Of a stretch of DNA of 36,643 bases, positions 934-30,488 are shown piece by piece. The DNA lies in the NCBI GenBank assembly GCA_019695295.1, contig JAIBAH010000036.1:1-36643 (forward strand), written 5' to 3'. A program made the translations under genes and the position numbers. Position 1 is the first letter of the stretch. Each line of letters begins with the position of its first letter. Source of the DNA: Bacteroidia bacterium. GTDB lineage: Bacteria > Bacteroidota > Bacteroidia > J057. The notes under the pieces are model-generated. The model made no database searches. It had not been told where the DNA came from and saw only the letters and a list, made by a program, of their open reading frames with translations.

Positions 934-1075
934 TTGTTGTTTCATTTTGTTTACATCCTTTTGAAACAAAAAACAATAACAGAATAAAATACAGATTCGC
1001 CCTGTCAATCACATAAAATTTCATTTTTTTTTGAAAAGTGAGAAAACTTTATTTATTTTACACATCAATTTATAA

Positions 1076-2602
1076 ATGTTAAATATGGGAAGACTCTTTC
1101 TTTTTTGTATCGGAGGAACCGGCTCAAGGGTTATGCGTTCATTAGTAATGCTTTTGGCCTCAGGAGTTAAGGTAGATGTAGAAAAAATCGTACCGATTAT
1201 CATAGATGTGGACAGTAAAAACGAGGATACAGCCCGGGCAATCAAATCGCTTGAGTTGTACAAACTCATTCGTGAACGGGTGTATGCTTCCAAGAATGTC
1301 CCTCAGGATGGTTTTTTCCTGACGGATATGTCTCCTTTGGGTTCTGAGGCGGTAGAAGGCTCAAACGTAACCAATATCAAAACCGCCTTTCAGCTGGAAT
1401 TCGGAAATATCACCAAGACTTTTTATAATTATCTGGAAGTAGCAAGGATGAATGACAATACTCAGACTCTCCTCCGTTTGCTGCTCGATGATTCTCCGGA
1501 GGAAGACCGGAATACAGAGTTGAATCTGAATCTGACCGTAGGGTTTAAAGGCAACCCGAATATAGGAAGTGTGATTTTCAATGAGCTGGTAAATACTGAC
1601 GAGTATAAATACTTTGCAAGGGCTTTTAATCCCAATGACAAAATTTTTATTGTAAGCTCTATTTTCGGCGGGACAGGCTCTGCCGGTTTTCCCCAACTCG
1701 TAAAAAACCTGAGAAGGAACTCCGGAAACATGAATGACGCGCTCAAAAAAGCAAAAATCGGAGCAACCGTAGTAATGCCTTATTTTACAGTAGAAGACAA
1801 TAACGGAAGTGCGGTAGATGCCCGTAATTTTATGTCAAAAACCAAAGCAGCCCTTTCTTATTATGAAAAGGAACTGAGAGGAGACGAAAAACTGGATGCT
1901 GTATATTATTTATATGATGAACCCGGAAATCCCTACGCCAACAATGAAGGAGGAGTTTCTCAGAAAAATGACGCACACTTTGTGGAAATGCTCGCAGCAA
2001 AGGCAGTCATTAAATTTGCCAATCAGAAACAATATGACGCAAGCACGGAATATTATGAGTATGCAATCCGTTCCAAGGAGCCTGTGCTCAATTTCACGCA
2101 TTTATTTGAAGACCCCACAAGGGACGTATTCCTGACGCTGCCAATGACCTGCTTCACCTATTTTGCCAAACTTTATGAAACAGTTTTGCCTTACGCTATC
2201 TTTCAGAAGGAAAAAGAGTTTGCAAAAAACCTTGAGCTGAAAAATAAATTCAAGGATAGCCGTTATATTTACAAGGATATTGATATTTTCCTCAGAGAGT
2301 ATTTCCTTCAGTATATGTCTGAACTTAGCCGGAATTCCAAGTTTGAGCCATTTAACCTTGCCGGTGACTTCAATGGAATGATAAACGGAAAACCCATTGT
2401 CGATACAAGAATCCGTGCGCTGAGGTGGGGAGATTTTGCGCTCAATGACGAAGGAACGTTTACGCAAAGAATGTCTCAGACAGAAGAAGCCCTCCGCAAG
2501 CAAAATGTTCCGGACGAAGAGCGGTTTATGAAAGTCTGTTATGATGCCTGCCGTTATGCGTTCGAACAGTATATTCAGCAGGCCCCGGTAGCCGATTATT
2601 GA
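1076..2602 (+). CDS. Tubulin/FtsZ-like GTPase-fold protein
   Basis: The 508-residue product has the two glycine-rich loops expected of the tubulin/FtsZ fold. An N-terminal nucleotide loop reads FCIGGTGSRVMRSL (about 10-23), and a tubulin-signature-like SSIFGGTGSAGFP sits at about 194-206. Between them is an acidic strand (IIIDVDSKNED, about 41-51). This pattern matches Pfam 'Tubulin_2'-type proteins as I recall them; no search was run. There is no signal peptide or clear membrane segment, so it is probably cytoplasmic. The start at 1076 is the first ATG; MGRLFLF at 1085 is an equally good alternative. It is followed 138 bp later by a pspA-like gene on the same strand, which suggests a membrane-associated role. 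Polymerisation and GTP use are unproven. Confidence 0.72.
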   Translation: MLNMGRLFLFCIGGTGSRVMRSLVMLLASGVKVDVEKIVPIIIDVDSKNEDTARAIKSLELYKLIRERVYASKNVPQDGFFLTDMSPLGSEAVEGSNVTNIKTAFQLEFGNITKTFYNYLEVARMNDNTQTLLRLLLDDSPEEDRNTELNLNLTVGFKGNPNIGSVIFNELVNTDEYKYFARAFNPNDKIFIVSSIFGGTGSAGFPQLVKNLRRNSGNMNDALKKAKIGATVVMPYFTVEDNNGSAVDARNFMSKTKAALSYYEKELRGDEKLDAVYYLYDEPGNPYANNEGGVSQKNDAHFVEMLAAKAVIKFANQKQYDASTEYYEYAIRSKEPVLNFTHLFEDPTRDVFLTLPMTCFTYFAKLYETVLPYAIFQKEKEFAKNLELKNKFKDSRYIYKDIDIFLREYFLQYMSELSRNSKFEPFNLAGDFNGMINGKPIVDTRIRALRWGDFALNDEGTFTQRMSQTEEALRKQNVPDEERFMKVCYDACRYAFEQYIQQAPVADY

Positions 2603-2740
2603 TTGGATTTTATTTGCGGGATTTCCCGAAAATGTAATAATTATTTTCCGGTTTCTACAAATATCCAAACTTTCTTTTTGATAGTTTCGTATATTAGTCT
2701 TATTATTGCAAAAAATTAGAAATTATAACTTTAAACTTGT

Positions 2741-3466
2741 ATGTGGAAAAGATTTGTACGTGCGATTAAATCCCTTTTTGGTGCAGGTATCAGCGCTATC
2801 GAAGATCCTAAGTTAATTCTGGAGCAAAATATCCGTGAATTAAACGATCAGGTTCCTAAAATGAATGAAAACATCGCTACTGTTAAGGCAAGCGTGAATC
2901 TTCTGGAAAAGGAAATGAACCGGCTGAAAACGGAATATCAGGATCTTGTATCCAAAATGAAAGCAGCTATTCAGGGTGGAAGAGATGATATTGCGCAGAA
3001 TTATGCACTTCGTCTTGAAACTGTGAAGGCTTCTCTTGCACAGACTCAGGCTCAGCATGCTTCTGCTCAGAAGGCATACGAAAAATCGCTGGAGGTTAAA
3101 AAAGCCTTTATGCGTGAGAAAGATAAAAAAATATCCGAAGCAAAAGAAGCCCTTCGTGCACACGAGAGAGCGAAATGGCAATCCAAAATTGCGGATACCC
3201 TCGAATCTTTTGAGGTGGCCGGACTTGATCAGACGCATGATGAAATGCTGAACAGAATAAACGAACAAACCGCTAAAAATGAAGCACGTATGGAAATCGC
3301 ACTCGAATCTGTGGATACCGAAGGGATGAAACTGGAGGAAGAAGCAGAAAAATTACGCGCTCAGGACCTGGTGAATAAATTCAAGGAGGAAATGGGAATG
3401 TTCGATTCCAATAAAAACAAAGTTCAGGACGACGTTGAAAATAATACACAGAAGTTAAAGAATTAA
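2741..3466 (+). CDS. pspA: PspA/IM30 (Vipp1) family membrane-remodelling protein
   Basis: The 241-residue protein is almost entirely predicted coiled coil. It starts with MWKRFVRAIKSLFGAGISAI, an amphipathic helix like helix alpha-0 of PspA/IM30, followed by EDPKLILEQNIREL, which matches the conserved family start. The length is slightly above E. coli PspA (222). PspA/IM30 proteins are homologous to ESCRT-III and form rings or rods that stabilise or remodel the inner membrane under envelope stress. The C-terminal tail after about residue 220 is Asp/Asn rich. No pspF, pspB or pspC is nearby; the partner here is the upstream tubulin-like gene. TTG (2706-2708)-N17-TAACTTTA (2726-2733) resembles a promoter, but it would leave almost no leader. 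A hairpin at 3483 ends the unit. Confidence 0.9.
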   Translation: MWKRFVRAIKSLFGAGISAIEDPKLILEQNIRELNDQVPKMNENIATVKASVNLLEKEMNRLKTEYQDLVSKMKAAIQGGRDDIAQNYALRLETVKASLAQTQAQHASAQKAYEKSLEVKKAFMREKDKKISEAKEALRAHERAKWQSKIADTLESFEVAGLDQTHDEMLNRINEQTAKNEARMEIALESVDTEGMKLEEEAEKLRAQDLVNKFKEEMGMFDSNKNKVQDDVENNTQKLKN

Positions 3467-18826: not shown

Positions 18827-19062
18827 TTAAAATTGAATCATAAATTTAGTAGTATAAACTTGCTCTCCCTGAATAAGAGATGCGATATATAGACCAAATG
18901 GGAATTGGCTCAAATCCAATGAGCGGGAATATTCGTGGTCTTCGTGGTTTGATTTTCTCATTCTTTCCATAATTTTCCTGAATAAAGCTGTCCTTCTGAA
19001 TGAAAGATTCTGTAAAAATACATCCCTTTGGGTAAATGTGCAAAAAAACCGAAGCGGAACAC
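18827..19062 (-). pseudogene. Remnants of two T9SS C-terminal sorting tails, joined in frame
   Basis: One minus-strand frame is open across this stretch and contains two recognisable tails. The downstream part (18827-18943) reads EDHEYSRSLDLSQFPFGLYI..., closely matching the end of the secreted protease at 19634 (EDHEYSRSMDLSQYPVGLYI...), and ends in TAA. The upstream part (about 18962-19062) reads FRFGFFAHLPKGMYFYRIFH and then SEGQLYSGKIMER, the typical end of a different T9SS type A domain with no full-length counterpart in the window. There is no signal peptide or cargo domain, so this is a gene remnant. A short ORF starting at 18970 (47 aa) exists but is probably not functional. Terminator 19042-19081 overlaps its start. 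Confidence 0.8.
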
Positions 19063-21599: not shown

Positions 21600-21952
21600 A
21601 ATAATATAATGTGTTAGAAAGTGAAAAATAAATTTACACTGCAACTATAATTAAATAGAACAAGAAAAACAAGGTTTTTTTGTGCGAATGGTTATTTTTT
21701 GTGGGGGAATGGTGTTATGAGTGGGAATAAAGACCCCGGACTGACGCCTGAAGATAATCTGTGCAAACGCAGGCTTTGTAAGCGGAGCCGAACTAAGCCG
21801 AACCAATTCGAAATGAGTTCATTGAGCGGAGTCTAAGAAGTTTTTAAGTATTCGGACAAAAGAAAACCGACATTCAGATTAATAAGATAAAATTCTGTTA
21901 ATCACTTGTTTTCAAGAAACAATTTATGTCAGGTTTTTTATGGTCAGTCGAA
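21600..21952. repeat. Gene-free region with dispersed-repeat-like sequence
   Basis: No gene is seen in these 353 bp. The stretch 21776-21840 contains AGCCGAAC twice and, on the minus strand, ACTCCGCTCAATGAACTC, wording I associate with dispersed intergenic repeats in Bacteroidota. At 21856-21877 there is a 22-nt word (starting ACAAAAGAAAAC) whose exact reverse complement occurs at 34861-34882. The promoter of the protease probably lies at its left edge but has no clear consensus box. Confidence 0.55.
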
Positions 21953-22600: not shown

Positions 22601-22676
22601 AGTTATTTTAACGGAAAATCTGCCTTTTTCGTTTCCAGGGGAAAACATAAGGATGTTGGGGTGGGGTGTATTGGGT

Positions 22677-22762
22677 TTCTCGCAGAGGCGCAAAGTCGCT
22701 GAGGTTGTTGGGTGAAACATACTCTCTTTGCGCTCTCCGCGGCTTTGCGTGAAAAAATTTCT
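22677..22762. repeat. Imperfect palindromic repeat built of CGCAAAG-like words
   Basis: The left arm contains CGCAGAGGCGCAAAGTCGC; the right arm, in reverse complement, contains CACGCAAAGCCGCGGAGAGC followed by GCAAAG. This matches a class of dispersed CGCAAAG-rich intergenic repeats I recall from Bacteroidota and some other phyla. It lies in the 186-bp gap between the barrel pseudogene and the four-repeat secreted protein. Confidence 0.6.
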
Positions 22763-22786
22763 TTTCTTGTAATTCCTGTAAATCAA

Positions 22787-30111: not shown

Positions 30112-30403
30112 ATTCTATTTTGATTTAAATAGTGAATGAATTTTGAATACTCCCGCCTTGAATATAATTCGGTTGAACGACCAGTTTCTTACTTTGGGGT
30201 GCCTAATGTTTAAAAAATAGCTGGCTTAAGCCATATTAAAGCAGGTAATACTATGCAAAGCATGTTTTCAAGAAGCGGCAGTCGGTATTTTAAGCAAGAT
30301 GGTGAATCAAATAAGATATATATCTTAGAAACCGTTTAAAAGCCTAAAAAGTTAAAAAAGCGTTCAAAAATTGTAAATTTGAGTTGTCAAACGGATTCCC
30401 CTC

Positions 30404-30444
30404 GTTCCGGTAAGTGTTCAGCCGGAGGCGTCACTTACCGGAAC
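30404..30444. terminator. 13-bp perfect hairpin downstream of ftcD
   Basis: GTTCCGGTAAGTG and CACTTACCGGAAC enclose a 15-nt loop. No T run follows on either strand, so the terminator role is uncertain. Together with the hairpin at 30489-30521 it lies past the 3' end of ftcD. Confidence 0.4.
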
Positions 30445-30488
30445 TTATAATCGAAATTCTCCTGACTTTCGCAATCCATTAACGAACA

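Follow-up and report, generated by a model that had tools for sequence, protein, structure and literature searches.

A Tubulin_2 protein encoded beside PspA/IM30 in a Bacteroidia genome is probably part of a dispersed tubulin/actin-like envelope module

FtsZl1 proteins, which fall in the Pfam family Tubulin_2, were described together with genes for vWA, OmpA and GTPase proteins, and membrane remodelling was proposed for them (Makarova and Koonin 2010, PMC2875224). Tubulin_2 proteins have been set apart from FtsZ and tubulin (PMC9871819), and haloarchaeal ESCRT loci reported to encode a CetZ-like protein provide a precedent for a tubulin encoded with ESCRT-III (PMC11188069); these three papers are cited from excerpts of their texts. 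In the main text of a PSP survey, the words "tubulin" and "FtsZ" occur 0 times (PMC11237479). Among the open-licence papers that our literature searches listed, we found no report of a Tubulin_2-PspA or a Tubulin_2-ASKHA pair and none testing what Tubulin_2 proteins do, though they have been described since 2010.

The DNA analysed here, which we call the window, is a stretch of 36,643 nucleotides from a Bacteroidia genome whose assembly comprises 4.9 Mb in 223 contigs (G000). The original prediction held that a tubulin-type protein with two glycine loops is followed on the same strand by a PspA/IM30 protein, and that the two might form an envelope system. Both open reading frames and both family assignments were confirmed, with each protein passing the cut-off of its Pfam model (PF13809 and PF04012). 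The first gene, which we refer to as TUB, encodes 508 aa, pspA encodes 241 aa, and each has one match in its own genome. The features of the locus are as follows.

1076..2602, + strand: TUB, a Tubulin_2 / FtsZ-like-1 family protein (PF13809 above cut-off; FtsZ/tubulin fold in a low-confidence model; orthologues)
1106..1132, + strand: T1-type glycine loop CIGGTGSRV (G10, G11, T12, G13 and R15, numbered in the 505-aa form, invariant in 9/9 sequences)
1661..1690, + strand: T4-type loop IFGGTGSAGF, the tubulin signature (F194, G195, G196, T197 and G198 invariant in 9/9)
1958..1987, + strand: SQKNDAHFVE, candidate T6/start of H7 for nucleotide base contact (QKNDAH invariant in 9/9)
2603..2740, + strand: gap of 138 bp between TUB and pspA (half next to TUB unconserved in pairwise alignment with G398)
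2677..2708, + strand: promoter-like element TTTG-N20-TATTATTG upstream of pspA (same element and spacing in G398, locus L045)
2741..3466, + strand: pspA, a PspA/IM30 (bacterial ESCRT-III superfamily) protein (PF04012; Vipp1/PspA PDB chains)

A second ATG in TUB, at 1085, fits the starts of its relatives better. Between G000 and the sister genome G398, TUB is 90% identical in protein sequence with a third-codon-position identity of 0.47, and PspA is 96% identical with a third-position identity of 0.48. Because the proteins have been preserved while the third positions have diverged this far, the comparison indicates strong purifying selection on each gene, and neither is a chance ORF.

We found that the TUB match to PF13809 reached 34.7 bits (cut-off 27, E 1.6e-8) and was confined to residues 182-245, and that TUB scored 18.4 bits against the classical Tubulin/FtsZ model PF00091, below the cut-off of 33. 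In an alignment of nine sequences, the two predicted glycine loops proved to be T1 and T4 loops, invariant in all nine apart from one Ser/Ala position. By analogy with FtsZ, the T1-type loop would be the phosphate-binding loop, and the order of the elements makes SQKNDAHFVE a candidate for T6/H7. The classical T7 catalytic motif is NxDxxD; by inspection, no T7 motif was noticed after helix 7 of TUB. An AlphaFold model of TUB, built from nine sequences, those of the window and of the loci of named genome records, was of modest to low confidence (mean pLDDT 58.3, pTM 0.69). When this model was compared with known structures using VIA, FtsZ 6ll6 came first (Z 12.7, 186 residues, rmsd 4.2), and all 50 rows listed were FtsZ, CetZ or tubulin entries or assemblies containing tubulin. 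Foldseek returned no match at E <= 0.001, its best being a tubulin chain at E 0.05, and a TUB profile searched against the sequences in the PDB found nothing with E up to 1. From the modelled structure, we conclude that TUB is predicted to have the FtsZ/tubulin nucleotide-binding fold. Its C-terminal part was modelled as helical at low confidence; FtsZl1 proteins feature a long coiled coil followed by a helical C-terminal domain.

PspA matched PF04012 with 72.6 bits (cut-off 33.9) over residues 2-211 of 241, and its matches in the PDB were Vipp1/PspA chains (E 5.9e-6). Against the classical phage-shock equivalog TIGR02977 it reached 25.8 bits, below the cut-off of 242.95. The prediction that classical psp regulators are absent held among the 17 window proteins that were run against Pfam, where neither PspB, PspC and PspF nor Lia partners were matched. 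Membership of TUB and PspA in a defence system was also considered and rejected: PADLOC gave no match for TUB, and the matches of PspA, to long coiled-coil-type models, were only weak.

The usual setting of pspA was visible at eight family loci outside the window's genus, where fbp, the fructose-1,6-bisphosphatase gene, lies upstream in seven of the eight and a gene of ~150 aa (L072 10158-10619 and its equivalents) lies downstream in all eight. This small gene showed weak similarity in Pfam to a mitofusin region only, and its constant position suggests that it may be the real partner of PspA. PspA proper is present in 11 of the 13 family genomes; among the 13, G405 has no PspA, and G397 gave only a short, weak match, to the ~150-aa gene. 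In G000 and G398 the small gene lies away from pspA and adjoins an ndk-like gene. Because the small gene sits elsewhere in these two genomes, PspA too has left its usual fbp-pspA-small-gene cluster.

The original prediction had cautioned that the 138-bp gap weakens the case for an operon, and the gap itself bears this out. Between G000 and G398, conservation within the gap is highest in a block containing TTTG-N20-TATTATTG, which we take to be the Bacteroidota-type promoter consensus with one mismatch, and transcription of pspA probably starts from a promoter of its own. Since the gap holds a conserved promoter-like block before pspA, it is doubtful that TUB and pspA form one operon.

Two further observations concern the rest of the window. 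At 134-829 on the - strand, a single in-frame TAA at 470-472 interrupts the gene of an ABC-transporter ATPase that is MacB/LolD-like by motif; the two halves of the gene share a frame, and the copy in G397 aligns to both of them. In addition, five mostly intergenic stretches of ~60-105 bp, at about 18950-19043, 21844-21949, 22663-22765, 30393-30473 and 34837-34974, recur on dozens of other G000 contigs in both orientations with ~75-98% identity, from which we recognise them as a dispersed short repeat family.

We found relatives of TUB in 14 of the 395 phylum genomes, in 7 of the 13 family genomes and at 8 loci of named genome records; one of the 14, G159 (E 2e-4), fails as a tubulin locus, since its locus L043 is empty in the profile map. 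We examined the neighbourhood of TUB at 18 close loci outside the genus (L019-L024, L031-L039, L044, L124 and L125); the genus loci L017/L045 and L018/L046, each present twice, stand outside these 18. Gene maps and profile maps gave the order c2-c3-TUB at 18/18 loci, and c1 lay directly downstream of TUB at 17, with L039 as the exception and a contig end falling inside c1 at L036. Loci with the core intact include those of the cultured relatives Arcicella aurantiaca (L024) and Cryomorpha ignava (L022). PspA was found at 0/18 of these loci, within flanks of ~1 to 10 kb on each side. Moreover, in a tblastn search of 26 TUB loci (including the two duplicate pairs), PspA appeared only at the G398 locus and its duplicate. 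Outside the genus, the count of neighbours thus went against the predicted pairing, and PspA as a general partner of Tubulin_2 proteins was rejected there on the 0/18. Gene order across Bacteroidota shows the constant partners of TUB, as read from these maps, to be c2, c3 and c1 rather than PspA. Many TUB loci add c4, which is MotA-like, and c5, which is MotB/OmpA-like. Farther away, TUB adjoins a c1-like gene on a cyanobacterial plasmid (L126), and the divergent TUB loci L040, L041, L042 and L047 have c1-like neighbours by profile.

Three of these loci carry peculiarities of their own. At L039 (9237-10484), TUB contains an in-frame stop and the operon also lacks c1, as if the TUB module decays as a unit. 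At L040 (1171-3062), the divergent Tubulin_2/c1 pair is followed by genes that we take to be TerD-like, and a link to Ter-type stress systems is possible. L124 is an IMG/VR contig filed as viral that carries c2-c3-TUB-c1; it could be host DNA or a phage-borne copy, and it looks like host DNA.

The partner c1 is a protein of ~1150 aa whose C-terminal half bears three motifs of ASKHA ATPases (actin/FtsA/Hsp70 fold), scored by the motif definitions used here. All three were present in 16/16 long BLAST-linked c1 proteins examined. By the pattern used, two of the four divergent c1-like proteins (L040, L041, L042 and L047) lack the first and third motifs, and the c1 of L124 lacks the third. With E values up to 10 allowed, a profile of the C-terminal half matched 13 sequences in the PDB (best E 0.0018), and 13/13 were MreB, FtsA, actin-like or exopolyphosphatase proteins; Pfam scans of single c1 sequences gave weak FtsA, EutA, Ppx-GppA and MreB matches. 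A structure model of c1 was unusable (mean pLDDT 39). From the motifs and the weak profile matches, c1 is a putative actin-type (ASKHA) ATPase. The c2 protein starts like a lipoprotein, carries an SGSM motif of the vWA MIDAS type and has no match in Pfam, and we regard it as a vWA-like lipoprotein, vWA by motif alone. The c3 protein is a small membrane protein. Similarity to ZorB models was detected for c5 (4.8e-16), and c4 was more weakly similar to ZorA and MotA_ExbB. Against the Zorya ZorB1 equivalog, c5 scored 32.3 bits, below the cut-off of 400. With the OmpA model, the c5 of L020 scored 24.2 bits against a cut-off of 27.2 and its L042 equivalent 61.3.

Within the genus the TUB operon is broken up, and TUB, c1 and c2 are all retained, each on a contig of its own. 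In G000, TUB lies on contig 63, c2 on contig 72 and c1 on contig 157. A close TUB occurs in 4 of the 13 family genomes (G000, G397, G398 and G395), and c1 and c2 each occur in exactly those four; the assemblies of these genomes are fragmented, and some neighbours are hidden by contig ends. The c1 of G398 comes as two contig pieces and that of G397 as a 290-residue piece at a contig end; in G397, c3 is still beside c2. In G395, which belongs to the family and lies outside the genus, the operon is intact, and TUB and PspA are ~2 Mb apart. The MotA-like c4 was found in 0/3 genus genomes and in nine of the remaining ten family genomes. Because most of these nine are without a close TUB, c4 homologues serve elsewhere too.

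We then weighed what the adjacency of TUB and pspA itself could mean. G398 keeps it with different genes on both sides: its DNA match is continuous over 1018-3466, the other matched window genes lie on other contigs, and no other adjacency within the first 20 kb of the window is kept. For gene pairs defined by mechanical ORFs, a few of which may be spurious, and with a partner not found on the fetched contigs counted as broken if room existed, G398 kept 4 of 18 testable adjacent pairs, TUB-pspA included (4 untestable), and G397 kept 2 of 17, TUB-pspA not among them (7 untestable); one of the two kept in G397 is the split ABC gene. In G397, TUB is followed by an XisI-like gene, with no PspA adjacent to it or found in the genome. 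One kept pair against a background of about one in five gives weak support for a local link between TUB and PspA. As a system, then, the predicted pair stood as far as the two folds are concerned, did not extend outside the genus, and inside it was kept in one of two sister genomes; the pairing looks local to one genus.

The reading of this adjacency that we consider likely is neutral hitch-hiking, in which a rearrangement in the ancestor of G000 and G398 put pspA behind TUB and the arrangement has not yet been broken. The genus has a scrambled gene order, TUB and pspA are both out of their ancestral clusters, the gap carries the pspA promoter-like block, and such a history is compatible with a dispersed module of TUB and c1. 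It sits less easily with the age of the pair: because synonymous sites are saturated (third-position identity 0.47), TUB-pspA has survived long among shuffled genes. Alternatively, TUB and PspA could be a genus-specific functional pair, with a tubulin-like filament positioning or driving a PspA coat and selection keeping the genes together. The one continuous match in G398 despite changed flanks, the low background retention of gene order (4/18) and the haloarchaeal loci with a CetZ-like protein, as excerpted (PMC11188069), all speak for it. We nevertheless think such a pair unlikely, given that G397 retains TUB with no PspA found, that the genes are far apart in G395 and never neighbours at the 18 loci outside the genus, and that pspA has its own promoter-like block; the supporting genomes are two only, and at 4/18 kept, one pair is unremarkable. 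A more ambitious version would be an envelope machine of a tubulin-type GTPase, a giant actin-type ATPase and a vWA lipoprotein, often with a ZorAB-like proton stator, which in the genus became dispersed, shed the stator and recruited PspA instead as a membrane effector. If true, it would join relatives of tubulin, actin and ESCRT-III in one pathway, and we judge it quite improbable. Least credible of all is a role for TUB in plasmid or phage segregation, as a tubulin of the TubZ/PhuZ kind. The tubulin fold and a few Tubulin_2 relatives on records typed as plasmids would suit that role; against it, no TUB relative was found in 50,697 phage records, no partition genes were noticed beside TUB, the conserved partners are envelope proteins, and the lone IMG/VR match, with its c2-c3-TUB-c1 order, looks like host DNA.

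Overall, the probable explanation in our view is a tubulin/actin-like envelope module of the FtsZl1 type that has become dispersed, with PspA as an opportunistic neighbour. TUB would be the cytoplasmic GTP-binding subunit of this module. TUB and c1 would act as a GTPase/ATPase pair on the inner side of the inner membrane, rather like FtsZ with FtsA, and this pair would respond, by way of c3, to c2, the vWA lipoprotein on the envelope side. The c4/c5 proteins could supply an optional stator-like arm for power or gating, dispensable and lost in the genus, where the module would be reduced to TUB, c1, c2 and possibly c3. PspA would be a general membrane-repair protein that moved beside TUB from its fbp-pspA-small-gene setting; it most likely works alone in membrane repair, sharing with TUB at most the membrane on which it acts. 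Counting against this explanation is the retention of the TUB-PspA adjacency in G398 though both flanks changed. The striking pairing of a tubulin with an ESCRT-III protein thus turns out to be mostly local, and we consider the dispersed tubulin/actin-like module the more interesting object. Its constant pairing of a tubulin with an actin-type ATPase offers a concrete, testable partner for Tubulin_2 proteins, and a genus with a scattered operon that yet retains TUB, c1 and c2 is a natural test of the core parts.

Compared with known systems, the window's PspA resembles the PspA/IM30/Vipp1 proteins (bacterial ESCRT-III) in matching PF04012 over almost its entire length, and differs in scoring far below the classical equivalog and in having TUB, not fbp and the ~150-aa gene, as its neighbour. 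The haloarchaeal Halo_adaptin ESCRT loci likewise encode a tubulin-family protein with ESCRT-III-type proteins; they are archaeal and multi-gene, and the ESCRT partners in the excerpts of that report were not seen here (PMC11188069). The c4 and c5 proteins of TUB relatives resemble ZorA and ZorB of Zorya, whereas the score of 32.3 is far from the equivalog cut-off of 400 and c4 was not found in the window's genus. As in the FtsZ-FtsA division pair, a tubulin-type GTPase is coupled in the relatives by gene order to an actin-type ATPase; however, TUB is no FtsZ by Pfam, and c1 is about three times as large as FtsA. The closest described system is FtsZl1. TUB differs from it in having 508 aa, about half of the type protein, in the scattering of its operon over contigs, and in its ASKHA partner c1, which the excerpts of that report leave unnamed (PMC2875224). 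It shares with FtsZl1, as described there, the Tubulin_2 match, the T1 and T4 loops and a patchy distribution, and it may share operons with vWA-type and OmpA-type proteins; the candidate for the OmpA-type protein is c5 of the relatives, and the candidate for the vWA protein is c2, with its SGSM motif and no Pfam match, which lies next to TUB in the relatives and elsewhere in G000.
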